A DNA stretch of 64,000 nucleotides from Pandoraea anhela. Lineage in GTDB: Bacteria; Pseudomonadota; Gammaproteobacteria; Burkholderiales; Burkholderiaceae. A program made the translations under genes and the position numbers. Positions 1 through 29,899 of this stretch are shown piece after piece; within the stretch, counting starts at the first letter, position 1; every line of letters begins with the position of its first letter. The notes under the pieces were generated by a model that saw nothing but the letters and a program-made list of their open reading frames with translations, made no database searches and was not told where the DNA came from. The stretch is taken from the NCBI RefSeq assembly GCF_902459655.1, contig NZ_CABPSB010000006.1:124001-188000 (forward strand). The letters run 5' to 3'.

Positions 1-3000
1 TTCGTCGTCGGGGGACTCTGAGGGACCATTGACGAGCTGACCTATGGCCGCAAGCCACGGCACCCGCGCAGCCGGCTTCTTGAAACCGTGTCCAGCCCAT
101 GGTTGGTGGGGGCCAAGTCCCGCCCGGGCTTCGGAACCGCCATTCCCATTCGCATAAGCCTCGCCAAGCTTTCGTAGATCATGCCTGTCAAAAACTTCCT
201 GCCAAGCTTGAACGCCTTCAGCGTCGTCGAGCAGCTCTTGGTCGGAAGCAGACGCGGAGCCTGCATCCGAGGTATGAACATAGACCTGCGAGTAGCCGCG
301 GAGCGAAATCTCCACGTCGCCTTCGCGCAGCTTCGCCCTCGCCCGCTCCATGAGACCCGTCATGCCAGGCGGGATCTCGGCGTCGATAAGCATATCCGCC
401 AAGCGAGCGAGCCACACGTCGCGATCGAGGCGACCCGGGTCGCCAAAGAGAGCCTCCCGGAACATGCCCAACGTTGACAGGAGTTGGTCCTTAGAATCAC
501 GGCGGGCCTTAGCCAGTCCATCTGCCCCAACATACTTCGACTCTACGATCGAAATAACGATACGGATACCCTCGTCTCGCTCTTCGACATTAAGTGCAAG
601 GATGTCGGCGATGCGGCTTTCAGGTTGTGACAGCCAGCTCGCGTAGTCGTCGAGCAGAAAGTATGCAGTCAGTACTTGACAACCAGCGGCGGAAGCCTTG
701 AACTCCTCTGACAGCAAGTAGCGGCTGAGGACCAAGCCGATCATCTCGCCTGCAGAGACACCGCGCTTAGCCGCGCGAAGCACAATGTCACCGGAAATAG
801 AAAGCGCGTCGCGCTTCGCCTTGGCGGCCGCAGCCTCAAGTTGTTCGGGATCGAGCTGAAGATTCAGCTCTTCCAAACGACGGCGCACAAGCACGCCGAG
901 TAGCCGTAGCTCAGAGGTCGAGCTGACGATCATGTTGCGGCCGTTGGTCGAGCCACGACGGTAGCGTACCACCGTGATGTCGTTGTGTTGGAGCTGACGT
1001 TTATCGAGCAGCTCATCGTAGGTCGCCACCCATTCTGCTAGATCGTGCGCGTCCTTGATCATGCCAGCCAAGGCGGCGCTTTGAAGCGAGATACGACGCG
1101 CGGGCAGGTATCTCTCGTCGGGCGAAGCATCGGTTTCGCGGTCGACAGCCGCAACGGCGGAGACATAAGCCCAGCCCGACGCGGTCTGCCAAGGGCATGT
1201 CAAAAATGTCGTCGATTTGAGTTCGTTCTCGCCCGAGACACTACGATAGGACCATCGCGATGGGGCATGGTCCAAGTTGGGACGGTCGTTGGTCCACGGA
1301 ACCGGGAGCCATTCCGACTGTGCCGCACGGGCGACCACGTCATGCAAGAAAGCCACGTCGAAGGCTTTAAATCCCTGCTCACTTTCGCCGGGTGTAGCCG
1401 AGATCGGAGTCACGGAAATGCGCAACTTCGAGATGAAATTGTCGCTCGTCTCGCTAACCACTGGCAGGTCAGGATCATCGCCAGCCTTGTTCACCAGCTC
1501 GCCATAAACGCTTCGAAGCTTGGCCGGATCCGAGTGGCGCACCGACACGCTGCATTGGAGCTTTCCATCGGCTTGAATCGACGAGAGCTCCCGTACAGTC
1601 GCAAGGGGCAACTCTGCGGCATCGGCGTTGTAGAGCACTACGCTCAGATTGGAGGCCTCATGCGGCTGCAATCCGACGTAGCGCTCCAAAAGTTCGCGTG
1701 CTTGCTTTGCGGCGGCGGCTGGTTCGACATCGGTCATCGCCTCTTCGGTGCCGCGTGTGGGCGACTCCAAAAGACTATAGCCGTTGACCGTGCTGCTTTC
1801 CGAGACGAGCGCTGAGGTACTCGTGCGCTTGAGGATAGCGATCTCAGGATAAAACGGGTGTGCAATCTCGTCGGAGAGCTCCCGCATAAAGATTTCTCGG
1901 TCGCCATAGAGAATGCTGTCGCTTGACAGCAAGTGAGTGGCGAAACTTGCCACGCGCCGGGACTTCACCGCTAGCGCCTTCATGCGCTCAGGATGCCACG
2001 GAGGGATGATCAACGCTGGATTGTCGCCAGCCACGCGCACTGTACCAACCGAGAGGACCTCGGAGACCAAGCGCGAACGGCAAACATCACCGCGTGCATG
2101 AGCCATCAAGGACGTCAGCAATGCGCCAAAGGACTCCGCCTGGCGCATAACAGCCTCGCCATGCACGCCCGTGGACACGAAGTCCTCCAACGCCTTGATG
2201 TACTGCTCTTCAAACTCGTCCCACGCGCCTCGAATCTCGTCGCGTTGCTGTGGTGTGATTCGGCCATCCTCCGAAAGCTCCTTGATTCGCCCTTTTATAT
2301 CCTGGCGAAGGCTGCGCAGCTTGTTAGCCGCGGGGACTAGCGAACCGGCATCTGTGGAATAAGTAGCCTCTAGGGTCCCGGTGTCGAGTAGCGAGACGTT
2401 TTGGACGCCGCCTTTCTTGCTCACGAGCCTGCGGGAAACCTCAGTGCAACCGACGCCGCCCTTCTCAAGGAGGCGGCGCATGTCGGCAACCATCGACAAG
2501 CCTATCGATGTTGACTTGTAGCTCCACAAGAGTTGGGTCTTGGCCAACATCGTTTCTTTGCCGTTCGCGATCTGCACCAACGCGACATCGAACTTGATCT
2601 GCAACGCTGCCCGTGAAAGCGAGGCGTTCGGTCGAATCTTGCTCTTCTTGTCGTTGCGCAGTTCCTTTTCCTTGGCGAAAAAGGCTTCGTAGTCAAAGAG
2701 CGGGTCGGGCAAATTCGCGTTGCCAAGCCGCTCGACCTTCCAATCCGCCCTTGAACCCATCAGCTCCTTCAAGCCGCGGTACATCGCTGAGAAGTAGGTC
2801 CCAGCGTCGTAGTTGAAGCGCTCGCGCCACTCCTTACGCCCTTTGGTGACCGTAAAGCGCAAGATGCGCTCACCCTCTGGATCACGAAGGCCCGCATGTA
2901 GGCTATTGACTACACGTGCAAAGCCGTCAAAGAAATCGTTGCACTCGATGGGTTTGCCATACAAGGCCTTTTCCCAACGGGCACAGAGCTTCGCGTCTTG

Positions 3001-4086
3001 CTCGAGCAATCGGCGATGCTTGACGAAGAACGCCTCGTCTTCCTCATTAAAGTCAGAACGGCGTTCGCGCGATTTCAGGTCATCCAGGAGGGTGCGACTC
3101 TCCGCATCGAGGGAGTTCTCCTGATCGCAGTCGTGGTCGAAGAACCGGATTGTAGAGTCTGCCAAACCAAACTGCTTTTCCTTGGGCTTGTCGAAGGCCA
3201 AGTAAACGCCGTCACTTTCCCATTCGAATTGCGCCAGTGTCGTGGCCGCCTCTTGATCGCCGGCGGGAGCGGCAGTGAATTCCTCCAAGGCCTGCCGCGC
3301 ACCATCGGTAATATCCGACTCGTTAGCTTTGATGCGCTCTAAAAGCTCTTCAGCGTCGAGCAACTGGCCGTTCTGCCTTAGCTTCTTGAGCAGTGGCCCG
3401 CGCTGTGTGAAAAGTTTGATGAAGGCCTTCTGCCACGGCTTGCGTGTCATCCCGAACGTCTTGGCGTTCGAGAAAAAAGAGCTATCCCTAGGAAGCCCCA
3501 CTCGAGGCAGGGCGAAACCGACGGCGTCGCGGATCGCCAAGCCGCGGGTAGACATGGCTTCGACAAGGTCGGAACAAAACTCGCCAAGCTGGACAAGCGA
3601 AAGTTCGGAGGAGGAAAGCAGTCCGCCAATCGCAGCATGAAATACTGCGCGGTCGTCCGGGACTGGCGAAAGGCCGCCCGCATACAACGCAGCCTCCACC
3701 CACGGCTCGGGGTCGGCGCGCATCTCTTTGGCGCCAATTGCCATTACATGGCCCAATGTGTCTGCGAGGTTGTGTTCGTTCCCGTTGGCGGTAAGAATCG
3801 CCGCCTTGGAAGTCACTGCGTTGTTGCGCACATACCCCGCGTTGTGAGAGATCAGGATCTCTGCAGGGAGGCCTTGGCTTTCGACCAACGCCTCTGGAAT
3901 CATAAGCTCCACACGCGCGAACAGTTCGGGATTGGCCAAGACTGCCCGCGCCACTGCGGCAATTTGGCCAGCAGAGAGCTTGTCAAGCCGAAAGAGCGCC
4001 GCAGAATCACCGGGCTGGTCAGGATTCGAAATGCGCTTGGCGAGAATATCTGCGCCGACGCGCCCAATGATGCGATCGGTCAGCAT
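1..4086 (-). CDS. Giant protein of candidate defence operon, PD-(D/E)XK-like motif (partial)
   Basis: Open frame of 1362 codons from ATG at 4086 to the window edge with no stop, so the C-terminus is missing. The start overlaps the stop of the upstream gene (ATGCTGA), which implies translational coupling. The first 1100 residues match nothing I can name. Near the edge is a nuclease-like motif: D1161, then a strand ending E1182-S-K1184, followed by helical Q/L-rich sequence, the layout of PD-(D/E)XK endonucleases. Size and third position after an ATPase gene and a mid-size gene resemble DptH of Dnd restriction systems, whose ATPase domain would lie beyond the edge here. The nuclease call is from motif reading only. 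Confidence is high for the gene, low for the function. Confidence 0.72.
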   Translation of the reverse strand, partial: MLTDRIIGRVGADILAKRISNPDQPGDSAALFRLDKLSAGQIAAVARAVLANPELFARVELMIPEALVESQGLPAEILISHNAGYVRNNAVTSKAAILTANGNEHNLADTLGHVMAIGAKEMRADPEPWVEAALYAGGLSPVPDDRAVFHAAIGGLLSSSELSLVQLGEFCSDLVEAMSTRGLAIRDAVGFALPRVGLPRDSSFFSNAKTFGMTRKPWQKAFIKLFTQRGPLLKKLRQNGQLLDAEELLERIKANESDITDGARQALEEFTAAPAGDQEAATTLAQFEWESDGVYLAFDKPKEKQFGLADSTIRFFDHDCDQENSLDAESRTLLDDLKSRERRSDFNEEDEAFFVKHRRLLEQDAKLCARWEKALYGKPIECNDFFDGFARVVNSLHAGLRDPEGERILRFTVTKGRKEWRERFNYDAGTYFSAMYRGLKELMGSRADWKVERLGNANLPDPLFDYEAFFAKEKELRNDKKSKIRPNASLSRAALQIKFDVALVQIANGKETMLAKTQLLWSYKSTSIGLSMVADMRRLLEKGGVGCTEVSRRLVSKKGGVQNVSLLDTGTLEATYSTDAGSLVPAANKLRSLRQDIKGRIKELSEDGRITPQQRDEIRGAWDEFEEQYIKALEDFVSTGVHGEAVMRQAESFGALLTSLMAHARGDVCRSRLVSEVLSVGTVRVAGDNPALIIPPWHPERMKALAVKSRRVASFATHLLSSDSILYGDREIFMRELSDEIAHPFYPEIAILKRTSTSALVSESSTVNGYSLLESPTRGTEEAMTDVEPAAAAKQARELLERYVGLQPHEASNLSVVLYNADAAELPLATVRELSSIQADGKLQCSVSVRHSDPAKLRSVYGELVNKAGDDPDLPVVSETSDNFISKLRISVTPISATPGESEQGFKAFDVAFLHDVVARAAQSEWLPVPWTNDRPNLDHAPSRWSYRSVSGENELKSTTFLTCPWQTASGWAYVSAVAAVDRETDASPDERYLPARRISLQSAALAGMIKDAHDLAEWVATYDELLDKRQLQHNDITVVRYRRGSTNGRNMIVSSTSELRLLGVLVRRRLEELNLQLDPEQLEAAAAKAKRDALSISGDIVLRAAKRGVSAGEMIGLVLSRYLLSEEFKASAAGCQVLTAYFLLDDYASWLSQPESRIADILALNVEERDEGIRIVISIVESKYVGADGLAKARRDSKDQLLSTLGMFREALFGDPGRLDRDVWLARLADMLIDAEIPPGMTGLMERARAKLREGDVEISLRGYSQVYVHTSDAGSASASDQELLDDAEGVQAWQEVFDRHDLRKLGEAYANGNGGSEARAGLGPHQPWAGHGFKKPAARVPWLAAIGQLVNGPSESPDDE

Positions 4087-5633
4087 TCCGCCTCTCCCTT
4101 GAACGCGAACGGATTTTCAACAAACGAGCAGGAATCAGAAAGCCTCCGGACCAAACCCAATCCAACAAGTCTGGCTTCGAGGTTGTCTCGGTTCTCGCTG
4201 AGCTCCTCCTGGTCAACCAGCTTGGCATCGACCAAGCGCACACCTTCTGCGTCACCCAACACTAGACCATAGCGCCGCTTGGCTTCAGCAAGAAACTCAT
4301 CGAATTGCATGCGATCTTCCACGATCGCGACCACAATCGACTTGAGCAACCTGTCATTGGGCGCGTACCGTGTTCGGCGAGATAGCCGTCGTGAACTGAG
4401 TCCGATCGCACGCGACCAAGACGCGTGAATCTTCCCGACGTGCTGTTCGTGGCGTGCGAGTGCGAGCTCAACGAGATCTCCAACGAGGACGTCTGGACTC
4501 TTTCCGGTGTAGTCCTCGTCGTCGCCGCCATCTAGTGACGGCCACTGGAAGCGTTCGCGCATAAGCTTTACTCGCTCAGCCTCCGGGAATTCACTCGAGG
4601 CAGCGTCGTTCCAGAGAGGATCCTGCCGAACTGACTCGACATATGCGCGCACTGCCTTAGCAGGCAACCCTTGGTTGAACTGGTAGCTATCGCCCGAGAG
4701 TGCTCTAACCTTCGTGCGCTCCTTGGAAACGATTTCGCAGACGATCTCAACGGGATCGTCGTCACCCGCGATCCGCTTGGCCCGCTCGAGAAAGTAAAGG
4801 AGCATATTCAGGCCAGATATGGCAATTAGGTGCTCCAAGGCATCGTAGATCGGCATGTCCCTGCCGAGAATGGATAGCCAGTCTTCACAAATCCGGTCAA
4901 ACCGAGCGTTGGCAACCTCGGGCAAATAGCCGGAAGACCGCGGGTCGTCGGCTAGCTGAGGTGCACCTTGCAGTGCACGCGCCAGTCGATTCATCGGAGC
5001 CTCGCGGTCGAATAGGCGCCTCGCCAAGGTGTCGCCGAGCTCCGCTCCCCGTTTCGCTCGCGCCAGCATTAGATATAGCAGCTCGCCAGTGCGCGCGAAA
5101 AAGCGGCGGTCGTTACTCATCTTGCCGCGCGAGTCAATTTCCAAGTCCTCGTAGAGGGCATCGGGACCGAAAGGGAAGACGAATTTCGAACTCCAACGCT
5201 TATTGCTACGGGACTCGAATGAGGAGGAGCGCAACAGCTCGATAGCCTTCGCAAAATCGTCGAAGTTTGAGAACGAGTGACGCAGGTAGACCATGTCGTC
5301 GTCGCCGTTACCCGTCTTGCCCTGGTCAAACTTCTCAAACCACTGCTTCCATTTCTCTGCGTCTGGCAGGGCGCTTTCGGCAATGGATTCGACGTAAGGG
5401 TTGTTGAAGAGTAGGCCGCGCAGCCGGATTTGACGTTGCGGTTGAAATTTGACCGCGCCACCCAAGCCTTCTTGAGGGCGTAGAGGCTTGCCCAGGTTCG
5501 AACCGAGCACGCCGAAAAACTCGAGCACAGTCAAATGCGGAAGCTGCTCGTCGTAGAGGCGGTGGCCCCAGATGTTCTCGTCGACGCAAAAGTCGACGTT
5601 CTTGATCTCTGGGCGCTTGATGATCTCGCTCAT
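4080..5633 (-). CDS. Conserved protein of unknown function, second gene of ATPase-led defence-like trio
   Basis: 517 residues, soluble, no signal peptide or membrane segment. Its ATG overlaps the upstream ATPase stop by 4 nt (ATGA), and its own stop overlaps the start of the giant downstream gene, so the three form one translational unit. Distinctive segments include KRWSSKFVFPFGPDALYEDL (about residue 145) and DRRFFARTGELLYLML (about 175-190), which look like the core of a conserved family. I see no catalytic motif I would trust. By position it corresponds to DptG in dptFGH operons, but I cannot confirm homology. A structural or adaptor role between the ATPase and the giant protein is inference. 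Confidence 0.75.
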   Translation of the reverse strand: MSEIIKRPEIKNVDFCVDENIWGHRLYDEQLPHLTVLEFFGVLGSNLGKPLRPQEGLGGAVKFQPQRQIRLRGLLFNNPYVESIAESALPDAEKWKQWFEKFDQGKTGNGDDDMVYLRHSFSNFDDFAKAIELLRSSSFESRSNKRWSSKFVFPFGPDALYEDLEIDSRGKMSNDRRFFARTGELLYLMLARAKRGAELGDTLARRLFDREAPMNRLARALQGAPQLADDPRSSGYLPEVANARFDRICEDWLSILGRDMPIYDALEHLIAISGLNMLLYFLERAKRIAGDDDPVEIVCEIVSKERTKVRALSGDSYQFNQGLPAKAVRAYVESVRQDPLWNDAASSEFPEAERVKLMRERFQWPSLDGGDDEDYTGKSPDVLVGDLVELALARHEQHVGKIHASWSRAIGLSSRRLSRRTRYAPNDRLLKSIVVAIVEDRMQFDEFLAEAKRRYGLVLGDAEGVRLVDAKLVDQEELSENRDNLEARLVGLGLVRRLSDSCSFVENPFAFKGEAEC

Positions 5634-7537
5634 ACTGGGGATCTCACAGTTACGGGACGAGCAAAGCCACGGCCTCCCGGTTCGATGTCAATGAAATTCA
5701 GCGTGAGCGCGGACGCTTCTCCACCGAGCTCGTCGTCGTCGCCAGCGAGCCTTGCGTTGCGAACAATCTCCGCCTTTCGAAGCAATTTCGCCTTAAAGGC
5801 CAACAGATCTTCGAGGCACTCATTGGAGAAGCTCGCTGGCAACGCGCCGGCTGCTACAAGCGACAGGAACTCGTGACGGATAGGAGTGAGATCAAATGCA
5901 ACGGAATTCCCGGGACCGGGCGAGAGCGAAACATCGAGCTGCGGGCGGCCAGTTCCTTCGTCGAGCTTGATTGCCATGCCAACCCCGCCCTGCCGACGGG
6001 ATGGCGTCTCATGGTCGCAGAGCACGCTAACGCGGCTTTGCGTGAAGCCTCCGGAGCTGGCAATGAAGATACGATCGACATTTTCCAACAGCAAGCCGGT
6101 CATGACGCGATTAAGCCCCTTGGCGATGCGCCCACGGACCGTTTCGCTGACTGGTTTCTTAGACTTCAACGATTCGATCATGTCCAAGTAGTCGCCAGCG
6201 AAGTGGAAAGCGGTCATGGACCAGCGGGGGTAGCCGGCCTCAGTGTCCGGCACGGTGAAATAGAGCCGGCGGCGCTGGGCCTCAAGCATTTCCAAGAACT
6301 CGGATGAGCCGCCTTCAAGACGAGCACCCTCGTACCCCTCCAAATATGCGTTTTGGGCAGCACGAAAGGTTGGAGTTGCTCCGTAAACTTGGTCGCCACC
6401 AACTAGCCGATTAAAGTCGGCCTGAAGCCGAGAATCGTCCTTTCCGTAGACTAAGAGGCCGTCAGCTGCGTTGGTGGTTTCCTCGCCTACGCCGAAGCTG
6501 GCCATTGCCTTGAAGACGGGACGATCAGAAGCTCTCCGCTTCGGCAGATTTGCACCGAATGCATTGGCATAGATACTCGCTTTGCCGATGTTGCCGCCAT
6601 CTACGATCTTGGCCACGTCCGCGCAAGTCATCAGGTTCTCCTTGGCATCTTTAGCATCGGAGTAGCCCAAGACCATGTTCGAGCACAGAGCAAGCAGGTC
6701 GCGAACGGGAAGATGAAGTCCGTTGAGCCGCGCGATCTCAATCAAGTCACCTAAACGGCGTGCAAGCTGCCCATCATCGGATTCACCGAGGAGCCTGCGA
6801 CGGTTTTCATCAATGGGGCAGACCTTACCTGCTGACTTGAGCGAGCAACGCTTGCAATTATCCCACTCGGGGTGACCCGCTACCGCTTTGGCGACTTCTT
6901 CCAGCGTCTTTCGACTAGTTGTGCGGCTAAGGTCGAATACAGCGAGCCGATGGGGTGACGGACCCGCTTGCAAAAATCGCTCTTGCAGGGGCTTGCGAAG
7001 CGGGTGTATCCGGTCTTGCCGCTTTCCCAAATCACGCAAGCGGTCGAGCAATTGGCCGTGGTTTGCAGCCAGGATAACCACCTCGGAGTCGTCGCTTCCC
7101 AATACAGACTTCTCAAGCCGCTGCAACGGCAGATCGCTCTCCTCGCCGTTAAACTCGGAGAGGTCCTTTATAAAAACAGCTAAACGACCGTCTGTAAGTC
7201 TGAGCTCCTTGATGTTGCCCTTGCTCGACCACTCTTTCGGATCGCCTCTCAATCTCGTCCACAACGCGCGACAGTGATAGGTTTTGCCGTCGCCTGCAGT
7301 ACCAGCGATCAAGATGGAACCCGGAATCTTGGAAGCGACATGCTCCTCCATCGCATCCAGCAACGGTGTCGATAAGCCAATGGGCTGTACTTTGGCCCTT
7401 GCGAGCGCACCTGCCACGTACTCGTCGAACATCGTTAAGTTGTTTGGTGTCGGGCCATAGCTTCGAAGAAATCGAACCCAAGCTGCTGAAGGCAGTGCGT
7501 ACGAGCTCGCATCCCCCTGCTGTTCAGAATCAATCAT
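5630..7537 (-). CDS. AAA-like P-loop ATPase, first gene of the defence-like trio
   Basis: 635 residues from ATG 7537, chosen because a strong ribosome site (GAGGGAGA) lies 5 nt upstream; an in-frame start 10 codons earlier has none. Walker A is GTAGDGKT at residues 79-86. A hydrophobic strand ending KDLSE (about 124-128) is the Walker B candidate, and VVILAANH (153-160) resembles sensor 1. Cys228, Cys231 and Cys240 could form a small metal site. The layout (N-terminal P-loop, followed by two tightly overlapping genes) matches DptF-type restriction ATPases; this is inference from order and motif. It is separated from the upstream methyltransferase gene by about 416 bp, so it probably has its own promoter. 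Confidence 0.78.
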   Translation of the reverse strand: MIDSEQQGDASSYALPSAAWVRFLRSYGPTPNNLTMFDEYVAGALARAKVQPIGLSTPLLDAMEEHVASKIPGSILIAGTAGDGKTYHCRALWTRLRGDPKEWSSKGNIKELRLTDGRLAVFIKDLSEFNGEESDLPLQRLEKSVLGSDDSEVVILAANHGQLLDRLRDLGKRQDRIHPLRKPLQERFLQAGPSPHRLAVFDLSRTTSRKTLEEVAKAVAGHPEWDNCKRCSLKSAGKVCPIDENRRRLLGESDDGQLARRLGDLIEIARLNGLHLPVRDLLALCSNMVLGYSDAKDAKENLMTCADVAKIVDGGNIGKASIYANAFGANLPKRRASDRPVFKAMASFGVGEETTNAADGLLVYGKDDSRLQADFNRLVGGDQVYGATPTFRAAQNAYLEGYEGARLEGGSSEFLEMLEAQRRRLYFTVPDTEAGYPRWSMTAFHFAGDYLDMIESLKSKKPVSETVRGRIAKGLNRVMTGLLLENVDRIFIASSGGFTQSRVSVLCDHETPSRRQGGVGMAIKLDEGTGRPQLDVSLSPGPGNSVAFDLTPIRHEFLSLVAAGALPASFSNECLEDLLAFKAKLLRKAEIVRNARLAGDDDELGGEASALTLNFIDIEPGGRGFARPVTVRSPV

Positions 7538-7953
7538 ATTGGTCTCCCTCGGGGTTACCCGACGCAACGCCTGATATAGACGCGCCTGTGCGGCCGCGGA
7601 GGCATGAGCGCGACGGGGTATAAGTTGTAAATATCGACCGGTGGATGCAAAAGGGCTGCCAATTGGACGTTCACTAACAGAATTTCAGGGGCCCGGAGCT
7701 TCTTGCCGCCGCCGAAAAGACGGCGGCGGCAACAAGATCTCCTTATGCATTTTGAATCCCCGCACCAGTAACTTATTATCGGCCGTAAACGGCAATTCTT
7801 TCATAGGTTGCCATCCTTGCACAGCGTCGAACGCGCAAATGCTACTCGCTCAGAGCTTTTTCCGGCGACGAGGCTTGATGTTCTAGGGGCACGCAACGGC
7901 ACAACACCGTCATCAATCGGATTCAGTCCTGCTCCGCCTCGACGGTGGCCCCG
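7538..7953 (-). other. Intergenic gap between methyltransferase and ATPase genes with a perfect 12-bp hairpin
   Basis: No credible reading frame in 416 bp. The main structure is a perfect inverted repeat, 7703-7714 with 7721-7732 (arms TTGCCGCCGCCG, 6-nt loop), with no U-tract on either strand. It probably serves as a transcript-processing or attenuating hairpin between the first gene and the coupled trio. The rest should hold the promoter of the ATPase gene; I could not place -35/-10 boxes with confidence. Confidence 0.5.
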
Positions 7954-10557
7954 TCAAATGCTGAAGCGGCGGCGCTTCGGGACCAACCTGCCCTCCGAAG
8001 TCTCGATCATATCGATCACCTGCCGAGCTGGCGTCGGACTATAGCTAATGTGGATGGGCCGCTCGCTACCGTAAAAATACAGACGGTCGAACTTCACGTT
8101 TCCGATGATCCATTCGACAACGTCAGCCATATCCTCGTCTTCGACAAGAAAATCACACGCCGCACCGAGACGGTCGCAAATATGTCCGCCACGACGATTT
8201 CTTTCGTGAGCGGCGTGTTGATCCAGCTTTGGCGCGATCCGCCCGTTTATCTTAGATGCCAAGGCCGGAGAACAAAAGCCGTACGTCAGTTTAACCATGC
8301 CGAAGTACTCGATGACTGGGTCAATTACATGGGAAGCCAGATCGAAGATCGCATTAAAGCTTTCCGGCTCAAGTGGCATATTTTCGATATCTAACGCCTC
8401 CTGCGTTTCACCGCACTCAATTAATTCTCGAAACGTTAAATAACGCCCACATTTTTGATCCAATGATGGAATCGATTTAGATCGAATCAGTCTGTAGCCA
8501 TCTAAAACCAATCGTATTTCATCGATTTTTTTGTTAAACGCCTCAGCACTTGGCCCGTATCCATCAAAGTCGAAGACCCCTAAATCATCCAACGCGGACT
8601 CAAACAACACTTGCTCGGCAAAAAAGGGCGACTCCTCGTTAAGGAAGCGAGATTTTCTATATAGATACGGTTCAGGATAGACATTCCCGTAATCGAAAAT
8701 GGTCAATTCTTGCTTACGCAAATTTATTTTTACTCGTTGAATCATTCGAGGCAACGGTGATCCAAAAAAATCGTCAAATTTCATCATTGTCAACTTTCCA
8801 GACGAAATATGGATCTTCAACAGATCTGCGCTCGTGACATCGCCATAGAGAACCGTACCGCAACCAATATAGGCACGCAGGATTGGAGGCAGTCGCTCAA
8901 CAAGGCTCGTATGGAGCTGAAGAGAAACACCGTCCTCCAGCCATCCTAGACCTTGCTCTGCCGCCTGAGCGCACGCACTAGATATCTGCGCCATATCCGC
9001 CAAGCTGAACAGTAGCTCTTTGCCGGCGAAAAGTGCACTCGGATAGCTGCCGAAGAATGCTTTCACGTCAGCCTGGAGTTGAGGCTCGAGCCTGCTGTAT
9101 GGAGAACGCTTGTCGAATTGCAGTAACGCGAAGTAGACGCGGAGATCATCCGTGCGCGAGGACGCCGCTCGCTCAAGGAGGAGCGTTGCATCATCCTTTG
9201 TCTCTTTGAGAAACCTGATGGCGGCAGCTATCGATCCGAACGTGCCAACCTCTTGCCGCAGCTCCTGCAATTCGTTTCTGACCGGATCACGGCCGAGCGT
9301 CAGGCAAAGTCGCCAGAGTTCATCGAGAGACTCACGATGGCTTTCATACAGCAGCTCAAGGCGATTTGTCTTGCGCTTAGCAACAGGATTTTCGGCAGGG
9401 CGTCGGGCCGCCGGACGGGCCAAAGACGTGGGCGGGACGATTCGCCGCTTACTTTTGACTCGAGCAAAGCGAAAGCGCTGCTCCTGATCCTTATCCTTGA
9501 AGACAAAAAATACACCCGGCCCAACCGCTATGGCATCGTTCTCCGTGACGCGATCGATGAAGGCTTTCAATTCCGCTTGCGAGTAGTACTTTTGGAAAGT
9601 ATTTCTCGAAGTTAGGACGCCGTCACCGTAGGGAACACCGCGGACAGAATCCTGATTGGAAAGCATGGCGGATACGACAAGGATCTCGTTTGACAGAGAG
9701 TACGATGTCTTAATAGCGAGTTCACGTTCAGCCGCGTTCTCGATCACATTTATGACAAATCCAAGATTAACGATGGAAGCAGATTTGATCGGCTGCTCAT
9801 TCGCGTAATGAGGATCCCAGCCTGCTGCGTCAATTCCAAGCCCCTTGAGTCCTCTTATGTCGTCCCCTCGGCCGCAACCGTAATCGAATAGCGTGCGCGT
9901 CCCGTCGAGAAATCCAAAGCGCGAAAGCATCTGTATCGGCGCCGAGAAGGTGTAGCGAGACAACGCCGTGCGATGACGTTCGATTAGACCGTTACTGCTT
10001 GCGCTCTGCGAGTCCTCTGGTTCGTGGTTCGCAATCGGCACGAGCTCGTGATCCGACAACAGATAGCCCCGCTGCTTGATGAGAGCTTCGAAGTTCTGGC
10101 GGAAGCCAATACGAGCTGGATCGTCGAATAGCCCTATCTGTTCAGCCACATCGGTCAACTGCCTGAAGACTTCCCAACGCGGATGATCACGGGCTATGAG
10201 CAATTCCTTACGATGCAAGATCGGTGGGTTGATCGACGATTCGTAGCTCCGAAACCGGCACCTCTTCTGATCAAGATCAACAGACCAACTGCGCTGTAGG
10301 ACGGGGAACGCCTCGTCAAAGAACCCCGGGTAGTCGAGCAAAGACATATTCGACATGGAGAGTCCTACCCGGATAACGTTGAAATCGTTCCCGGCAGTCA
10401 GGCTCGCCAGCAAAATACCCTCGTCTATGCTGCGCCGCAACGTGTCTGGAAGACGCTCCAGAAGAGACACATGAAAATATGCGTCGCTCGCAACGACCTT
10501 CCCGATCCCAGCATCTAAATGCGTCAAAAAATCTTCCCTGGCGGTTGTCAAACTCAT
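7954..10557 (-). CDS. DNA phosphorothioation-associated putative methyltransferase, with duplicated flanking module and M15-like C-terminus
   Basis: 867 residues. The central SAM-methyltransferase domain has motif I FDYGCGRGDD (224-233), GWDP at 247-249 and VNLGFVINVIE (263-273), then a TFQKYY segment, a signature I associate with the NCBIfam DNA phosphorothioation-associated putative methyltransferases. Residues about 28-168 and 548-691 align with each other (both open with SL-ERLP--LR and keep a Y-RK-------F-----D--G-FDD/FDF pattern), so the catalytic core is flanked by a duplicated module, possibly target recognition. Residues about 705-838 resemble peptidase M15_3 folds (YLTFREL, IDPVIEYFG, GAACD, RPIHISY). 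Canonical dnd genes are not seen. Methylation of DNA is inferred, not shown. Confidence 0.8.
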   Translation of the reverse strand: MSLTTAREDFLTHLDAGIGKVVASDAYFHVSLLERLPDTLRRSIDEGILLASLTAGNDFNVIRVGLSMSNMSLLDYPGFFDEAFPVLQRSWSVDLDQKRCRFRSYESSINPPILHRKELLIARDHPRWEVFRQLTDVAEQIGLFDDPARIGFRQNFEALIKQRGYLLSDHELVPIANHEPEDSQSASSNGLIERHRTALSRYTFSAPIQMLSRFGFLDGTRTLFDYGCGRGDDIRGLKGLGIDAAGWDPHYANEQPIKSASIVNLGFVINVIENAAERELAIKTSYSLSNEILVVSAMLSNQDSVRGVPYGDGVLTSRNTFQKYYSQAELKAFIDRVTENDAIAVGPGVFFVFKDKDQEQRFRFARVKSKRRIVPPTSLARPAARRPAENPVAKRKTNRLELLYESHRESLDELWRLCLTLGRDPVRNELQELRQEVGTFGSIAAAIRFLKETKDDATLLLERAASSRTDDLRVYFALLQFDKRSPYSRLEPQLQADVKAFFGSYPSALFAGKELLFSLADMAQISSACAQAAEQGLGWLEDGVSLQLHTSLVERLPPILRAYIGCGTVLYGDVTSADLLKIHISSGKLTMMKFDDFFGSPLPRMIQRVKINLRKQELTIFDYGNVYPEPYLYRKSRFLNEESPFFAEQVLFESALDDLGVFDFDGYGPSAEAFNKKIDEIRLVLDGYRLIRSKSIPSLDQKCGRYLTFRELIECGETQEALDIENMPLEPESFNAIFDLASHVIDPVIEYFGMVKLTYGFCSPALASKINGRIAPKLDQHAAHERNRRGGHICDRLGAACDFLVEDEDMADVVEWIIGNVKFDRLYFYGSERPIHISYSPTPARQVIDMIETSEGRLVPKRRRFSI

Positions 10558-11178: not shown

Positions 11179-11210
11179 ATCACCCGTCCGTTTCCTTTTC
11201 TTGTCTCGTG

Positions 11211-11238
11211 ATAGAGCCCGGCCTACGCCGGGCTCTAT
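11211..11238 (+). terminator. Perfect 12-bp hairpin upstream of DUF932 gene
   Basis: Arms 11211-11222 and 11227-11238 (ATAGAGCCCGGC / GCCGGGCTCTAT) with a 4-nt CTAC loop. It lies 33 bp after the previous gene and 26 bp before the next start. There is no proper U-tract, so it may be a weak terminator or a mRNA-stabilising/processing element. Confidence 0.6.
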
Positions 11239-11263
11239 CCGTTTACGTCCAAGGAGTTTCATC

Positions 11264-12232
11264 ATGCATCTCGTCCAATCCATGGCTTACGTCGGCGAAT
11301 CCCCGTGGCATGGTATCGGTAATCAACTTGCACCCAAGCAGCCACTCGAAATGTGGGCGCGGCAGGCCGGTATGAACTGGCGTATTGAGGAAGCCGAGGT
11401 GCGCTTCATCTCGGCAACCGCCGGGTCTGGCCTTGGCGCGATTCAAGCTTTCCCGGAGCAGAAAGTGCTCTATCGCTCGGATACGAAAGCGCCGCTGGCC
11501 GTCGTCTCCTCGAAATATCAAGTAGTGCAACCGGAAGCCATTCTCGAGTTTTATCGAGACCTTGTAGATGTCGGTGGCTTCGAGCTGGAAACGGCCGGCG
11601 TGCTCAAGGAAGGGCGCAAACTATGGGCGCTTGCGAAGACGGGCCAGAGTACCACGCTCAAGGGTCGTGATCGCGTGGATGGCTATCTTCTTCTTGCGAC
11701 CGCTTGCGACGGTTCGCTCGCAACAACCGCGCAGTTCACGTCGGTTCGTGTCGTGTGCAACAACACGCTCGCAATTGCACTCGGTGACAATACCGGTGCC
11801 GTCAAAGTGTCGCATCGCAGCCATTTCGACGGGCAGGCTGTCAAGCGCCAGCTTGGGATCGCGATCTCTTCGTGGGACGGCTTCATGGCACGTGTGAAAG
11901 CCCTATCGGAGTGCAAGGTCAACGATGCAGCAGCCGAGACATTCTTCGGTCGCGTGTTGACTTATCCCGCCAGTGGCGCCAGCTCCCCAGTCACGGCGAC
12001 CAACGACAGTGCGATCAAAGCAGTTCAGGAACTGTTCTCGGGTCGCGGCAAGGGCGCAGACCTGGCGTCGGCGGCAGGTACAGCGTGGGGACTGCTCAAC
12101 AGCGTAACTGAATTCGTCGACCACCAGCGCCGTGCGCGCAGCGACGATCACCGGCGCGATGCCGCGTGGTTCGGCACCGGCGCAGCCCTCAAGCAGAAAG
12201 CATTCGAGGAAGCGATGAAGCTCGTCGCTTGA
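11264..12232 (+). CDS. DUF932 domain protein (phage/plasmid type)
   Basis: 322 residues from ATG 11264, preceded by AAGGAG 8 nt upstream; earlier in-frame starts have no ribosome site. The opening (SMAYVGESPWHGIG), the central TSVRVVCNNTLAIAL and an FGRVL-type C-terminal part are characteristic of the DUF932 family carried by phages, plasmids and integrative elements. No enzymatic motif is known to me; a role in DNA metabolism of the element is inferred from its constant neighbourhood with YqaJ. Here it sits 68 bp upstream of a YqaJ gene, separated by a hairpin, as the second gene of a plus-strand module. Confidence 0.85.
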   Translation: MHLVQSMAYVGESPWHGIGNQLAPKQPLEMWARQAGMNWRIEEAEVRFISATAGSGLGAIQAFPEQKVLYRSDTKAPLAVVSSKYQVVQPEAILEFYRDLVDVGGFELETAGVLKEGRKLWALAKTGQSTTLKGRDRVDGYLLLATACDGSLATTAQFTSVRVVCNNTLAIALGDNTGAVKVSHRSHFDGQAVKRQLGIAISSWDGFMARVKALSECKVNDAAAETFFGRVLTYPASGASSPVTATNDSAIKAVQELFSGRGKGADLASAAGTAWGLLNSVTEFVDHQRRARSDDHRRDAAWFGTGAALKQKAFEEAMKLVA

Positions 12233-12251
12233 AACCATGCCTTTTACATCC

Positions 12252-12280
12252 ATGCCCGGCCGGAACTCCCCGCCGGGCAT
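12252..12280 (+). terminator. Hairpin between DUF932 and YqaJ genes
   Basis: Arms ATGCCCGGC (12252-12260) and GCCGGGCAT (12272-12280) around an 11-nt loop, followed by TTCATTT. It shares the CCCGGC/GCCGGG core with the hairpin before DUF932. Weak terminator or processing element. Confidence 0.6.
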
Positions 12281-12299
12281 TTCATTTGTGGAGGTTGAA

Positions 12300-13295
12300 A
12301 TGGCTTCGCTTGAGCCCGTGGGACATCATCGCAGCCGTTCACCATTGCGGCTTGTGGAGACGAAGAACATGTCGCGCGAAGATTGGCTGGAGGCGAGAAA
12401 ATCCGGGATCGGTGGATCGGATGCGGCGGCAGCCGTGGGTCTCTCCCCCTACCAAAGTGCTCTCGAATTGTGGCTTGTAAAGACTGGGCGCGACGCAAAC
12501 CTGCCGAAACCCGATCCGGACGACACGACCGAGCCGGTCTACTGGGGAACATTACTGGAGCCGATTGTCGCGGCGTCTTATACGAAGCAAACCGGCAACC
12601 GTGTGCGGCGCGTCAACGCCGTTCTACAGCATCCGTCATTACCCTGGATGCTCGCCAATGTAGATCGTGAAGTCGTCGGAAATCGCGACGTGCAACTGCT
12701 CGAATGCAAGACCGCTGGAGAATTCGGCGCACGCTTGTGGCGCGATGGCGTTCCCGAATACGTGCAAATTCAGACTCAGCACCAGCTCATGGTCACAGGC
12801 AAGCAGGCGGCCGATGTTGCGGTATTGCTGTGCGGCCAGAAGCTCGATGTGCACCGCATCGAGCGCGACGACGCATTGATCGCACGGCTGGTCGAACTCG
12901 AAGCCGCCTTCTGGCGGTATGTGGAAACCGATACGCCGCCGCCCGCCGATGGATCGGAATCGGCGGATCGTGCGCTGCGCTGTCTTTATCCAGGCGCAGG
13001 CGGCACGGTCGATTTCACGGATGACCGTCGCCTGTCGTCGACGTTCGCGGATCTGATCGCCGTGCGTGCCGAGATCGAGACCCGCCAGACGCTTGAAGCC
13101 AGGTTGAAACAGACCATCATGCAAAGCATGGGCGAAGCGGACCGCGCCCAGTTCGACACGGGTTCCGTGTCGTTCAAGCGCAGCAAGGATAGCTCCGGCG
13201 TCGATCTCAAACGGCTGCTTGCCGATCACCCTCAGTTCGCGACGCAATACGCAACCACGAAACCGGGTTCCCGCCGGTTTCTCGTATCGACCTGA
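12300..13295 (+). CDS. YqaJ-family viral recombinase (exonuclease)
   Basis: 331 residues from ATG 12300 with GGAGG 8 nt upstream. YqaJ/lambda-exonuclease signatures: WLEARKSGIGGSDAAAAVGLSPY near the N-terminus, then LECKTAGEF, the E-x-K metal/catalytic strand, then VQIQTQHQLMVTG, the QxxxxM helix. The family trims double-stranded DNA ends for single-strand annealing recombination, usually with a partner ssDNA-binding protein. I see no RecT/Bet gene beside it; the next gene could be the element's partner. Hairpin-preceded second gene of the DUF932 module. Confident call. Confidence 0.92.
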   Translation: MASLEPVGHHRSRSPLRLVETKNMSREDWLEARKSGIGGSDAAAAVGLSPYQSALELWLVKTGRDANLPKPDPDDTTEPVYWGTLLEPIVAASYTKQTGNRVRRVNAVLQHPSLPWMLANVDREVVGNRDVQLLECKTAGEFGARLWRDGVPEYVQIQTQHQLMVTGKQAADVAVLLCGQKLDVHRIERDDALIARLVELEAAFWRYVETDTPPPADGSESADRALRCLYPGAGGTVDFTDDRRLSSTFADLIAVRAEIETRQTLEARLKQTIMQSMGEADRAQFDTGSVSFKRSKDSSGVDLKRLLADHPQFATQYATTKPGSRRFLVST

Positions 13296-13338
13296 CCTAC
13301 CGTTCCATTACTTCTACTACATCTACAGGAGCATTGTC

Positions 13339-14262
13339 ATGCTGAAGGGCCTTGCTATCACCCCACCAGTTGTCGGAAGAATCTCCATCGGCCGTGTTGT
13401 CGAGAAGAACGGCAAGCGTCTGCCGGAGAAGGACGATCAGTTCACTTTGACGACCCAAGTCTGGAGCCGGGAGGGCTGGCTTCTGCACCCACTCAACGAA
13501 ACCCTGCGCAAGGCTAATACGGGCAAGCTGCGCGCCATCCCCGTGCGCTTCCTGTTCAACGATCCCGATCTGAACCTACGTGCTGAGTATTCGTGTTTCG
13601 ACCGCGACACGGGACGACCAGTGTGCGTCGGCAATGGGGAAACCTGCCGTCGTGCCGGTGATTCAGGTATCGAAGAATTGCCGTGCCCGTCGCCAGATGC
13701 CTGTGTGTTCGGTCAGGCCGGAGCTTGCAAGCCCTACGGGCGGCTCAATGTGCTGATTGGCGAGGAAGACGAACTCGGGTCTTTCGTGTTCAGGACCACG
13801 AGCTTCAACTCGATCCGCACATTAGCGGCACGGCTGCACTACTTTTCCGCAGTCTCGCGCAACCTGCTCGCCTGCCTGCCGCTCGAACTTAAGTTGAGGG
13901 GGAAAAGTACGACTCAAAGCTACCGCTCCGCGATCTACTACGTCGACCTCGGCGTGCGCACGGGTAGCAGGCTCGAAGCGGCAATTACCGAAGCGCGCGA
14001 ACTCGACGCCCGGCGCAAGGCCGCTGGCTTCGACCAACAGGCACTCGATACCGCCGCGCACGCCGGGCTCAGTAACGGCGCATTCGAGGAGAGTATCGAG
14101 GATGGCGGCGCAGCCGTGGACGAGTTCTACCCACAGGAAACGCCGGGCGACGCGCCGCACGAAGCCCCCGCATCCCCCGCAGCGGCAAGCGGGCCGCCGC
14201 CGTCAACGCTGCGCGACAAGATGGAACGCAGGGCCGCGCAGCTCGGCGGCAAGGCAGCATGA
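13339..14262 (+). CDS. Hydrolase or metal-binding type element protein (recombination-module partner)
   Basis: 307 residues, start ATG 13339 with CAGGAG 8 nt upstream. It opens MLKGLAITPPVVGRISIG and contains FDRDTGRPVCVGNGETCRR with further Cys residues (CPSPDACVFGQAGACKPYG), a four-plus-Cys cluster likely to bind zinc or an iron-sulfur centre. I recall this family being annotated as hydrolase or metal-binding protein next to DUF932 and YqaJ on integrative elements; its biochemical role is unknown. The C-terminal 60 residues are Pro/Ala-rich and acidic. Its last codons overlap the next start by 4 nt (ATGA). It may be the ssDNA-annealing partner of YqaJ; that is inference. Confidence 0.72.
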   Translation: MLKGLAITPPVVGRISIGRVVEKNGKRLPEKDDQFTLTTQVWSREGWLLHPLNETLRKANTGKLRAIPVRFLFNDPDLNLRAEYSCFDRDTGRPVCVGNGETCRRAGDSGIEELPCPSPDACVFGQAGACKPYGRLNVLIGEEDELGSFVFRTTSFNSIRTLAARLHYFSAVSRNLLACLPLELKLRGKSTTQSYRSAIYYVDLGVRTGSRLEAAITEARELDARRKAAGFDQQALDTAAHAGLSNGAFEESIEDGGAAVDEFYPQETPGDAPHEAPASPAAASGPPPSTLRDKMERRAAQLGGKAA

Positions 14263-19254: not shown

Positions 19255-20556
19255 CTACTCGGCTTGTTGCACTTCGAAGTACAAATTGCCAGTTGTTTGC
19301 CGTGGCAGTTCATCTGCTCCGACTCGATAGCCAACCTCGAACGAATGGATATCCGCCTGGGTGCTCATCACAATCGTGAACGATTTGAAAATCTTCCGAA
19401 ACCCATGTTGAATCTTTCCCACTCGGAAAGCGATGGCTTTATGGTCGTCGCCGATCCGTGGCCCTTCCCTCAAATACGAACTATCGAGCTGCGGGGAGTG
19501 TACTGTCGTCGAGCTTATGAATCCATGGGGCGCCAGAGGCGGAGGTTCCGGTAGTTCTGGGCCCTTGGGTAAATCATCGTCTTCGTAGACCAGAACACCG
19601 TCCGGGAATGTAACTCCTGCCCACACATCTGTTGCAGGCCGTGTTCCTCGGTTTACAACAGCAAGCTGGATATGCACGGTGCGCTGTAGAAGCAACCTGT
19701 GCTCCTTGAGCTTATCGAGGTACTTCTCATAGCTGTTGTAGTACCATTTCACGCGCATGTTGTATCCCTCGAGTTCCTCCTCTGTCCATTCTCTAAATCG
19801 CTTAACGCGCGGCCCCCCGAACGGAATAAACGGCCCCGAACGAAGCATTTCAAACGGCGACTCGGGCTCATCCTGTTGAGCCTTTGTTCTCAACGGTGTC
19901 TTCACCATGACGTCAGCTAGCGACGGCACATCGGTCAGTTGTACATCTTGCCGAACGACAAAGACGTTCGGGATATCGTCGGCTAGCTCAACCGACAGCG
20001 ACGGCATTGGATTGCGAATCAACTGGTCTTCTCTCGGCGCTGCCAAATTCGTCCTAAGCGCTGCAACAAGCTGTCCAACAAGACCATTTCGAATCTTTTC
20101 GATAGCAGGGTTCTTTTTACTGTCGAGGTGATAGGTGATAGCACCACGCCTGTGCCGCAAGTCGAACGGCAGTTCCTCTGGTTTGCCGCCAAACGCTAGG
20201 TTAGCAACGGTGATAACGCGCTGCGGGCCTACTTCACGGATGGCATAGCCCAGCTCAATCATGACATTGGGATTTGGAATCTTCTTCGTCGCCGTATCTT
20301 TCTTGACCTCGGCAACCGGAGTGACATCGGCAACAAATATTTGACAGTCGTCTATCTTCCGGAAAATCGTGGCCACGATTTCAACCAGTCCTGCTTCGCC
20401 CTTGGTGTCATGGTCTAACTCGAGACGGTCCGCCACCTCTAGCTGAAGCTCCTCGGCAACCTTTTCTATGGCCTGAGCGAGCGCATCCTTGATGAAGTCT
20501 TTGGTAGTTGCGGCGGGAAGGTCGCTCTGCCACGACCAAAAAACGGTTCTGCTCAT
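19255..20556 (-). CDS. TIR-like nucleotide-binding protein with C-terminal extension
   Basis: 433 residues from ATG 20556. The N-terminus VFWSWQSDLP and the segments IFVADVTPVAE, NPNVMIELGYAI and LPFDLRHRR mark a family of TIR-like/nucleotide-binding proteins (FWSWQSD type) common in defence islands; the E in NPNVMIELG sits where TIR NADases have their catalytic Glu. Residues about 205-433 form a second domain with a beta-rich part (VHIQLAVVNRGTRPATDVWA) typical of an accessory sensing or binding region. No partner effector gene is adjacent. NADase or nucleotide-sensing activity is inference from the fold. It borders decayed DNA on the right. Confidence 0.65.
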   Translation of the reverse strand: MSRTVFWSWQSDLPAATTKDFIKDALAQAIEKVAEELQLEVADRLELDHDTKGEAGLVEIVATIFRKIDDCQIFVADVTPVAEVKKDTATKKIPNPNVMIELGYAIREVGPQRVITVANLAFGGKPEELPFDLRHRRGAITYHLDSKKNPAIEKIRNGLVGQLVAALRTNLAAPREDQLIRNPMPSLSVELADDIPNVFVVRQDVQLTDVPSLADVMVKTPLRTKAQQDEPESPFEMLRSGPFIPFGGPRVKRFREWTEEELEGYNMRVKWYYNSYEKYLDKLKEHRLLLQRTVHIQLAVVNRGTRPATDVWAGVTFPDGVLVYEDDDLPKGPELPEPPPLAPHGFISSTTVHSPQLDSSYLREGPRIGDDHKAIAFRVGKIQHGFRKIFKSFTIVMSTQADIHSFEVGYRVGADELPRQTTGNLYFEVQQAE

Positions 20557-20625
20557 GATTTCACGTTGACGGTTGCGCCACAATTGGACCGAGAATTCTA
20601 CCAAACACCAACCGAACGAAAGCAT

Positions 20626-20766
20626 CCTCCGGGATCGTTCAAGGACGCATCTGGCCAACTGAACGGCTTCGACATCGATATTGCAAGCGCACTGTGCGCT
20701 GAAATGAAGATGACCTGCCAAATCACCGCGCAGGCGTAGGGCGGCATCATTCCTGGCCTACAGGCA
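20626..20766 (+). pseudogene. Amino-acid ABC transporter substrate-binding protein fragment
   Basis: The frame from 20626 reads PPGSFKDASGQLNGFDIDIA then ALCAEMKMTCQ, a TAG at 20737-20739 where the family has Trp, then GGIIPGLQA. This is the N-terminal lobe signature of HisJ/ArtJ-type periplasmic binding proteins. Nothing before or after it continues the protein. A remnant about 45 codons long. Confidence 0.7.
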
Positions 20767-22362: not shown

Positions 22363-24099
22363 CTACCGGGAGCGGGAACGCAGCCAACGGTTATCTAGAT
22401 CGAAAAAGAACTCGTACTTGTCGCCGCCCACGCGGTACCTGATTTCGACCGACTCTGGCTTCCTCTTCGGCGGGGCAGACGCCCTGCTTGTCGCGCGGGA
22501 TTCGGCCTCCCGGACGAGCACATTTCCCCTAGCGTGAAGCCAGTCCAGCACCGGCCTGAAATTCTCGATCTTCTTCAGTCCATATCGCGAACAATTGGCG
22601 CGCAGATCTTGCACGGGCACGTCACAAACCATCCTGACATCGCCAGGCAGATCCTCCAGAGGGCCACCATTTACGCTCTCCAGCATGTCCCTGAACTTCG
22701 TTAGCACGTACCCGGCCATCTCGCGCATCCGGGTTTCCTGGTTGAACACCCGCCTGAATTCATTGAGATACCATTCCGCTACCTTGAAGGCTGCTTCGAC
22801 CGTTGACTTCGGAATTGCCAAGCCAGCGCCAGCCGGGTTGTCCATATCACCAGATTCGAAAAAGTGAAAGAGTGCTGACAATCTTGCGACGTGCTCAGCG
22901 AAACGATTGGCAAACTCTCGCTCATTTTCAAATTTCCCTTTCGTTGCCATAGCAACTTCAATACCGTTGTACGTCTCCTCCCAGAATTTTTGAGCATCGG
23001 GCTCGAAGTACAACGTCTCTCTGTTTTCCGCCCGCTCTTCGATGCTCGCGTGGGAGTGCGAAAGAAGCGCCTGAACCCGCTTATTAAAGCGGTCGATCCA
23101 CACAGTCGAACGGTCTTCTGGCCTTTTAAAAATGCGCGTTCCATAGGGCGTATCCGGCCTCGATAAAAGCACTCTGGACATCAACCCGATGCCTTTTGCG
23201 AGCTCCCCTTTTTGCTCCACGAAGCGGTCAAATACGATTGGCTGCACCATGAGCGATAGGGTTAGCCGCGGGTCATGGACCAAAAAGCTTTCCTGTTTCG
23301 TGCGGCCGACGACATCAATCGAGCCGCCATCCCACAGGCGATCTAGGCTCGCCATGTCGGATTCGCCTTTCGAATTGAGAATCCCGGCGGCTTCGTCCGA
23401 AAACAGTCCGGCAGCCGGCCAATTCTGCGCTAGGCTCTGTTCAAGCTGGCGTATCGGAATTTTCGAATACAAGACCCGCTGCAATCGCGGCGGACGGCGT
23501 TGGATTACTTCCCGGTTGAGTTCGGCAAGCTCCCGCGTCACCTCCTCTGCCTTGTCGCCCGCCTTCTTCGCGAGTCTCTTTGTCTCTGCGTCTTCACTTA
23601 TGGACAGCGTTTTGGATTTGCGAAGCAGTTGCCCTTCGGCCTTTTCCAGTTCACGGATTTTTCGTTGCGATGCGGCCCGGTCGAGTTCGTAGGCAGTCGT
23701 CTCCGCCTCGAACACCGAGCGCCTGATAAGGTCGTATGCCTCAATCGGTTTGACAACCAGTTGGTCCGCGCGGGACTTGCGCGCCCCCGTATCCGCCACG
23801 GTCAGGAGGAAAAGCGAACAAACGGATTTGTGGTCGTTCGCTATGCCGCGATTCATCCAAATCAGGTCTTGGCATGCCACCGAAATGGCAGACAACACTG
23901 CCTGTGCCGCGATGGGCACCGCCAGTCCGTCATTCTTGCAAATTTCGATAACGGCACCTCTCATGGTCTGCGGCAAGGCTTCCCAAGGATAGGTTTCGTC
24001 TTCGGGGTCAAAATCGGGGAACGGCGGTTTATCACAATGCCCGGCAACAGGTTCGGGTGCGAGCAAAAGCGGCACATTGAAGTCGATATTGTCGCTCAT
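22363..24099 (-). CDS. DUF3987 domain protein (satellite/prophage ATPase-like)
   Basis: 578 residues; ATG overlaps the upstream stop by 4 nt. N-terminal segment YPWEALPQTMRGAVIEICKN and LLTVADTGARKSRADQL (about residue 97-112) are typical of DUF3987/YfjI proteins, in which the P-loop is degenerate (GARKS instead of GKS). Residues about 130-200 are a long charged helical stretch, probably a coiled coil. The family is found on phage satellites and cryptic prophages, often with replication or AlpA-type genes, as here. Exact activity unknown; replication helper is the usual guess. Last gene of the operon before a terminator. Confidence 0.82.
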   Translation of the reverse strand: MSDNIDFNVPLLLAPEPVAGHCDKPPFPDFDPEDETYPWEALPQTMRGAVIEICKNDGLAVPIAAQAVLSAISVACQDLIWMNRGIANDHKSVCSLFLLTVADTGARKSRADQLVVKPIEAYDLIRRSVFEAETTAYELDRAASQRKIRELEKAEGQLLRKSKTLSISEDAETKRLAKKAGDKAEEVTRELAELNREVIQRRPPRLQRVLYSKIPIRQLEQSLAQNWPAAGLFSDEAAGILNSKGESDMASLDRLWDGGSIDVVGRTKQESFLVHDPRLTLSLMVQPIVFDRFVEQKGELAKGIGLMSRVLLSRPDTPYGTRIFKRPEDRSTVWIDRFNKRVQALLSHSHASIEERAENRETLYFEPDAQKFWEETYNGIEVAMATKGKFENEREFANRFAEHVARLSALFHFFESGDMDNPAGAGLAIPKSTVEAAFKVAEWYLNEFRRVFNQETRMREMAGYVLTKFRDMLESVNGGPLEDLPGDVRMVCDVPVQDLRANCSRYGLKKIENFRPVLDWLHARGNVLVREAESRATSRASAPPKRKPESVEIRYRVGGDKYEFFFDLDNRWLRSRSR

Positions 24100-26597: not shown

Positions 26598-26673
<76 letters not shown>

Positions 26674-28475: not shown

Positions 28476-28570
28476 TTCGTCTCCATGGCGCATACGGCTG
28501 CGATGCGCCGACCTTGCCGTTATCCCTTACCGGTACCCTTTACCCGCGATCCGTTACGCGGCGATTGCAT

Positions 28571-28606: not shown

Positions 28607-28622
28607 CACCCGCCGCGTTCGC

Positions 28623-29880: not shown

Positions 29881-29899
29881 GGGTGTGCCTCGTGGTCGG

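Follow-up and report, generated by a model that had tools for sequence, protein, structure and literature searches.

The window, a stretch of 64,000 nucleotides from Pandoraea anhela (C6:124001-188000), opens inside what we read as a mobile phosphorothioation (PT) defence island that combines SspFGH, a second effector cassette and an accessory methyltransferase, with a probability of about 0.85. This reading is drawn from gene identity, arrangement, linkage and motif loss, from which all of the activities described below are inferred. The trio at the left end, described in an earlier note as an ATPase, an unknown protein and a giant nuclease, turns out to be part of a known system, and the more novel part is a cassette beyond sspH, past the window edge. 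The genes at this end of the window are the following.

7954..10557, minus strand: TIGR04096 (NCBIfam) methyltransferase, 867 aa
7703..7732, no strand: inverted repeat, a putative element between the methyltransferase gene and sspF, with 12-bp perfect arms and a 6-nt loop, read from the sequence
5630..7537, minus strand: sspF, an ATPase with a Walker A motif; PADLOC SspF, 849 bits, covering the full profile; GAGGGAG before an ATG at 7537
4080..5633, minus strand: sspG, 517 aa; PADLOC SspG, 754 bits, covering almost all of the profile
1..4086, minus strand: sspH, N-terminal 1362 residues, cut by the window edge; PADLOC SspH, 1825 bits

The four genes lie on the minus strand with the last three coupled, as the earlier note had it: in the ORF list sspF and sspG overlap by 4 nt (5630-5633) and sspG and sspH by 7 nt (4080-4086). 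The listed sspF frame runs from a TTG (7567-5630, 645 aa), and from the sequence the ATG at 7537, preceded by GAGGGAG, is the better start. The methyltransferase stop codon is 416 nt from this ATG, with the inverted repeat in between, so that only sspF, sspG and sspH are visibly coupled; of the operon that the methyltransferase was thought to lead, the adjoining position of that family is real and this interval with its repeat separates it from the trio. As the trio matches PADLOC profiles over nearly its whole length and the methyltransferase matches TIGR04096 in two stretches, these are not chance open reading frames. Pfam gave nothing above its cut-offs for any of the four window proteins, which fits their unknown look by eye. 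The full open frame of sspH encodes 1821 aa and ends at C6:122651, 1350 bases beyond the window's left edge, within the left-hand stretch L002 (C6:104501-124500). The part of SspH outside the window matches PADLOC SspH (939 bits) and has an FtsK/SpoIIIE domain (125 bits) at its C-terminus; no nuclease family match to either the window part or the C-terminal part was found in NCBIfam, Pfam or PADLOC, and the giant nuclease is accordingly not borne out. Outside the window, to its left, the following genes are found.

C6:112312-113493, plus strand: sspB open reading frame; PADLOC, 391 bits; Pfam DUF4007
C6:113486-116821, plus strand: sspC; PADLOC, 1481 bits
C6:116814-117656, plus strand: sspD; PADLOC, 449 bits; Pfam PAPS_reduct
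C6:118170-119252, minus strand: PD-(D/E)XK-like nuclease, 2 nt gap to its GTG start
C6:119255-121018, minus strand: MORC-like GHKL ATPase, separated from the helicase gene by 8 nt with AGGAGG
C6:121027-122664, minus strand: helicase-like gene, overlapping sspH by 14 nt

The modification genes sspB, sspC and sspD, identified with PADLOC and Pfam, occur together 6 to 12 kb beyond the left edge of the window. Judged by these profiles and by the coupling of sspF, sspG and sspH, the window trio and sspBCD are the published SspABCD-SspFGH PT defence system and not a new family; the system as presented in the main text of PMC8092258 likewise has sspBCD, a coupled sspFGH and an FtsK-like end of SspH. 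In contrast to that system, the L002 stretch is without a cysteine desulfurase: none (SspA/IscS) was found among the L002 ORFs with our own profile. Homology to a well-described defence system, looked for with profiles and by leftward extension, was thus found. The suspicion of a PT-linked defence locus is upheld by the PADLOC matches to SspFGH and sspBCD, while the remark that no dnd or ssp genes are visible is true of the modification genes, which lie outside the window, and not of the trio, which itself consists of ssp genes. The likeness drawn to dptFGH extends to an analogous arrangement of three genes, and a Dnd-type DptFGH restriction module, which shares this three-gene logic, is almost certainly not what is present: NCBIfam gave no DptF, DptG or DptH match (E ≤ 1 for the four window genes and E ≤ 0.1 for the SspH C-terminus), the SspF, SspG and SspH profiles fit nearly the whole length, and among seven L002 proteins scanned only SspD matches DndC, weakly (at most 22 bits). 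We rejected DptFGH on the strength of the SspB, SspC, SspD and SspFGH profiles. The mid-size protein is not a DptG, as had been surmised, and is SspG by PADLOC.

In the SspABCD-SspFGH system as read here, SspB, SspC and SspD, with a cysteine desulfurase (SspA or IscS) supplied from elsewhere, would put sulfur into one of the two strands at a short motif, which for homologues is published as 5'-CPSCA-3'. SspF, SspG and SspH would damage unmarked DNA and hinder phage replication, as published for Vibrio homologues: in V. anguillarum FF-93 all three genes are needed, and SspFGH damages DNA without PT and suppresses T4 DNA replication (main text of PMC8092258).

The methyltransferase bears the PT-associated signature attributed to it, matching TIGR04096 (DNA phosphorothioation-associated putative methyltransferase) at 569 bits against a curated cut-off of 150. 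It contains a duplicated flanking domain (residues ~15-173 and ~548-692), a SAM core (~199-357) and a C-terminal extension (~702-862) that is picked up as a separate match. Relative to TIGR04096 it is an extended version: the family's C-terminal domain recurs at the N-terminus, and one more domain follows at the C-terminal end. The predicted model has a pLDDT of 86, and its fold matches are limited to residues ~197-357, where the best alignments of the SAM core are to a Methanosarcina enzyme, Trm9, METTL6 and small-molecule enzymes. As this core resembles tRNA and small-molecule enzymes, base methylation is unsupported. DNA amino-methyltransferases carry (N/D)PP(Y/F) at strand 4; in a reading of the alignment and model, the window protein has NLGF at this position and a conserved WDPxY at strand 2 instead. 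These features bear on a MADS-like possibility, in which self DNA would be marked by the methyltransferase and DNA lacking the methyl mark would be attacked by SspFGH-like proteins; the position of the methyltransferase beside the trio and matches of the SspG C-terminus to MAD7 (weak, 30 bits) and of the SspH C-terminus to mad8 (78 bits) might be adduced for it. Such an arrangement is very improbable, given the strand motifs, the affinities of the SAM core, the occurrence of the TIGR04096 family beside dnd genes as well, and a complete sspBCD on the same element, and the methylation-based relative proposed in the earlier note loses its support with it. MADS was rejected; the MAD7 score lies below the curated cut-off of 410 bits. 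We favour a PT-linked accessory role for the methyltransferase, whose substrate would more likely be RNA, protein or a small molecule than a DNA base.

Among the 33 methyltransferase loci with at least 9 kb on both sides, PT genes are near in 25 (in 20 by two or more profiles, in five by a single profile) and eight have no PT gene by our own profiles. The methyltransferase occurs in 26 plasmid records, 15 of which are absent from the SspD records listed (60 of 75), and in two of seven methyltransferase genomes the match is at a contig edge and the neighbourhood was not judged. A cysteine desulfurase match is present in 16 of 39 methyltransferase loci without ssp or dnd matches (L050, L053, L055, L058-L060, L063, L064, L074, L084, L087, L095-L097, L100 and L109), 13 of the 16 being methanotroph records by title. 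The N-terminal domain copy carries a conserved NPPILHRKE motif. In the C-terminal part, H781, D802 and H836 are invariant in 51 aligned proteins (the window's and those of 50 of 80 loci) and are reminiscent of M15 peptidases; a peptidase M15-like domain is treated as a lead only, as Pfam M15_3 was matched in one of the 51 members at E = 0.22. The C-terminal half has no match among PDB sequences up to E = 5, and stretches that match the C-terminal part alone occur on cyanobacterial plasmids (e.g. H28, H30 and H31). Our literature search on the TIGR04096 family found one genome paper (PMC8416521). At E ≤ 0.01, PHROGs had no match to the methyltransferase, the GHKL ATPase or the nuclease.

The mobile-element neighbours pointed out earlier are evident in the backbone genes, the integrases and the following repeats.

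C6:109106-109155 (L002:4606-4655): partner repeat, beside two integrase genes
13219..14262, plus strand: recombination directionality factor-like protein; Pfam Gp3-like, 149 bits
26598..26647, minus strand: attachment-site-like repeat at the 3' end of tRNA-Ala(CGC) 26598-26673

The two repeats are identical at 47 of 50 bases, and an exact 18-base match is expected 0.005 times under uniform base use. Together with the two integrase genes, the repeat pair at tRNA-Ala suggests an island of ~41.5 kb (C6:109106-150647), apparently integrated at this tRNA gene. The backbone (11201-14262 on the plus strand and 22363-24099 on the minus strand) comprises genes for DUF932, YqaJ recombinase, the Gp3-like directionality factor and DUF3987. 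Inside the island, 19255-20721 (minus strand) encodes a 488-aa protein with a CAP12/Pycsar-type TIR match of 24.5 bits (Pfam cut-off 24.7), a possible defence gene. Just outside it, 26766-34767 (minus strand), of which the first gene alone was profiled, contains a 5'-nucleotidase-family protein and c-type-cytochrome-like ORFs that look sox-like (thiosulfate oxidation) by eye.

The cassette behind sspH consists of the helicase-like, GHKL ATPase and nuclease-like genes listed above. The ATPase matches Pfam HATPase_c_3 (66 bits), a three-row profile of it matches the MORC2 chain in the PDB (1.1e-8), and its sole PADLOC match at E ≤ 0.1 is MzaB (55 bits). The GHKL ATP-site motifs are recognizable, with A replacing the first G of DxGxG in the P. 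anhela protein and four others of 13 and with the G2 pattern unmatched in L111. The nuclease-like protein matches the first 95 positions of the PADLOC effector endonuclease PDLC00735 (52 bits), and its D...QxK pattern is conserved in two relatives. The helicase-like protein matches PbeA weakly (20 bits, residues 402-509); in L123, a PLD-type relative, the helicase matches PbeA with 77 bits and the PLD protein matches DrmC with 42 bits.

We scanned 19 loci with our own profiles, two of which (L043 and L111) derive from the methyltransferase search; L044, where the GHKL match is partial (61 bits) and SspC and SspD are also present, was excluded. All 19 carry sspD, and the gene order helicase, GHKL, nuclease is kept in 18 (L129 has one gene between). 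The helicases of the window's locus, Agrobacterium L120 and L121 have GKL for GKT and ADAE, GDAE or SDAE for DEAH (ADAE in the P. anhela protein), and both motifs are intact in the other 16 loci. The D...QxK nuclease occurs exactly in these three loci, which form one group in the ATPase tree (100/99), and a PLD protein with an HxK site occurs in 15 of the 19; no nuclease was found in L111 by the locus scan. The N-terminal helicase part in the Paraburkholderia loci L040 and L041 has GKL too. Since the Walker A and DEAH motifs are gone, the helicase of the window's clade is probably a non-catalytic subunit that binds DNA or acts as a scaffold, and by its sequence motifs a PD-(D/E)XK-like nuclease here replaces the usual PLD nuclease.

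The cassette is closely linked to ssp genes. A search of 72,556 plasmid records gave a GHKL match in 49, of which 12 were used, being full length with at least 39% identity, 18 weaker ones were listed and 19 were not. Among the matches listed, all 12 full-length ATPase plasmids (10 inspected at locus level) also carry SspD, 0.95 to 11.7 kb away, and SspD matched 75 plasmid records overall. In a class sample of 369 genomes, the ATPase exceeds 400 bits in two (the window's included), both near SspD, with the next match at 86 bits; SspD was found at E ≤ 0.001 in 217 and was counted only at 300 bits or more, in ten genomes, with the next best at 67 bits. In a phylum sample of 398 genomes the ATPase is present at E ≤ 1e-40 in six, again including the window's, and the other five all have SspD, 1.8 to 7 kb away. 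The two samples amount to seven distinct genomes, the window's among them, and in all seven the ATPase lies within 7 kb of SspD. Within the fetched stretches of the 19 loci, SspFGH is present in two (the window's and L120) and SspE in three (L111, L127 and L137). Among the 60 SspD plasmids listed of the 75, the ATPase is present in 12, SspG in 32 and both in one (Fisher one-sided p = 5e-4, a significance that related plasmids inflate).

From these sequence comparisons, the cassette is probably an undescribed third effector module of Ssp, mostly found without SspFGH. It would likely stand beside SspE and SspFGH as a set of helicase, MORC-family GHKL ATPase and PLD or PD-(D/E)XK nuclease, occurring in Pseudomonadota, cyanobacteria and Bacteroidota. 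The same reading, held with equal confidence, has the helicase of one clade turned into a dead subunit as the nuclease was swapped, and two islands stacking the module on SspFGH. Adjacency in islands can arise by hitchhiking, and it is conceivable, if unlikely, that the cassette forms a defence system in its own right and simply happens to occur in PT islands. The order does vary, the cassette following sspFGH here and preceding it in L120; it is often on the strand opposite to sspBCD; and MORC-helicase-nuclease operons of prokaryotes have been known from methylase systems since 2008 (main text of PMC2292703). Against independence, every sampled full-length relative is at most 12 kb from sspD (12 of 12 plasmids among the matches listed and seven of seven genomes), and in G120 and G199, the two class-sample genomes where a genuine SspD is accompanied by no more than a weak GHKL relative, SspD and that relative are on separate contigs. 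The exception to this separation of weak relatives is plasmid CP049030 (24%), the one among the 18 weaker listed records that also carries SspD. As a third module, the cassette would be the second effector of the same island, in which the GHKL ATPase may clamp or loop DNA in response to its PT state and so license the nuclease. Two of the related loci have peculiarities of their own: in Aminobacter pUSP2 (L121:25847-28813) the SspF profile (239 bits) matches within the cysteine desulfurase open frame as well, which may be what is left of a lost sspFGH, and in a Geminocystis plasmid (L124:1668-5538) SspC is in two pieces beside otherwise complete ssp and cassette genes.

Of 2,678 sspBCD loci, 2,211 have neither SspFGH nor SspE nearby, and restriction partners beyond those were suggested in 2021 (main text of PMC8092258). 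Part of this gap could be filled by the helicase-MORC-nuclease cassette, a concrete candidate that is open to testing. If the reading is correct, the cassette ties MORC proteins of bacteria to a mark on the DNA backbone, which a bacterial MORC would read or act on, as a prokaryotic counterpart to eukaryotic MORC silencing.

No description of the cassette turned up in our searches of openly available main texts. MORC and GHKL are not mentioned in the main text of PMC10853773 or the accessible text of PMC12839542; nor are helicase, MORC and phospholipase in the accessible parts of PMC12421847, or these and GHKL in those of PMC11931770 and PMC11662687. The portion of PMC8011034 that was available treats paraMORC-like kinases without PT terms, and the main text of PMC2292703 does not mention PAPS or phosphoadenosine. 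Two elements are already known, namely the general idea of a MORC ATPase-helicase-nuclease operon (PMC2292703, 2008) and helicase-HKD nuclease proteins encoded next to Dnd genes (PMC10853773), as far as the main texts of these sources go.

Compared with the SspABCD-SspFGH system in the main text of PMC8092258, the island has an extra TIGR04096 methyltransferase and the helicase-GHKL-nuclease cassette behind sspH. SspE (PADLOC) and PbeABCD (main text of PMC6459918) are likewise PT-dependent effector modules. SspE is a DUF262 protein, unlike the cassette, and a three-sequence SspE-like profile had no match in the L002 or window ORFs. PbeABCD joins helicase and PLD in PbeA, has an SMC-like partner, PbeC, and includes no GHKL ATPase, whereas the helicase-like protein of the cassette is separate and without PLD, and the cassette's ATPase is of the GHKL type. 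The HKD nuclease-SF2 helicase proteins beside Dnd genes, proposed as an alternative restriction component (main text of PMC10853773), similarly pair a helicase with a PLD-type nuclease alongside a PT modification system; they are, unlike the cassette, fusions and are described for DndDE/CxC loci. The prokaryotic MORC/paraMORC restriction operons (main text of PMC2292703) also have a GHKL ATPase, an SFII helicase and a nuclease of restriction-fold or HKD/PLD type. The cassette behind sspH agrees with them in a GHKL ATPase of MORC similarity with helicase and nuclease neighbours, and departs from them in that its helicase-like protein does not have active SFII helicase motifs; those operons accompany DNA methylases, whereas the cassette subfamily described here accompanies the PT genes sspBCD.
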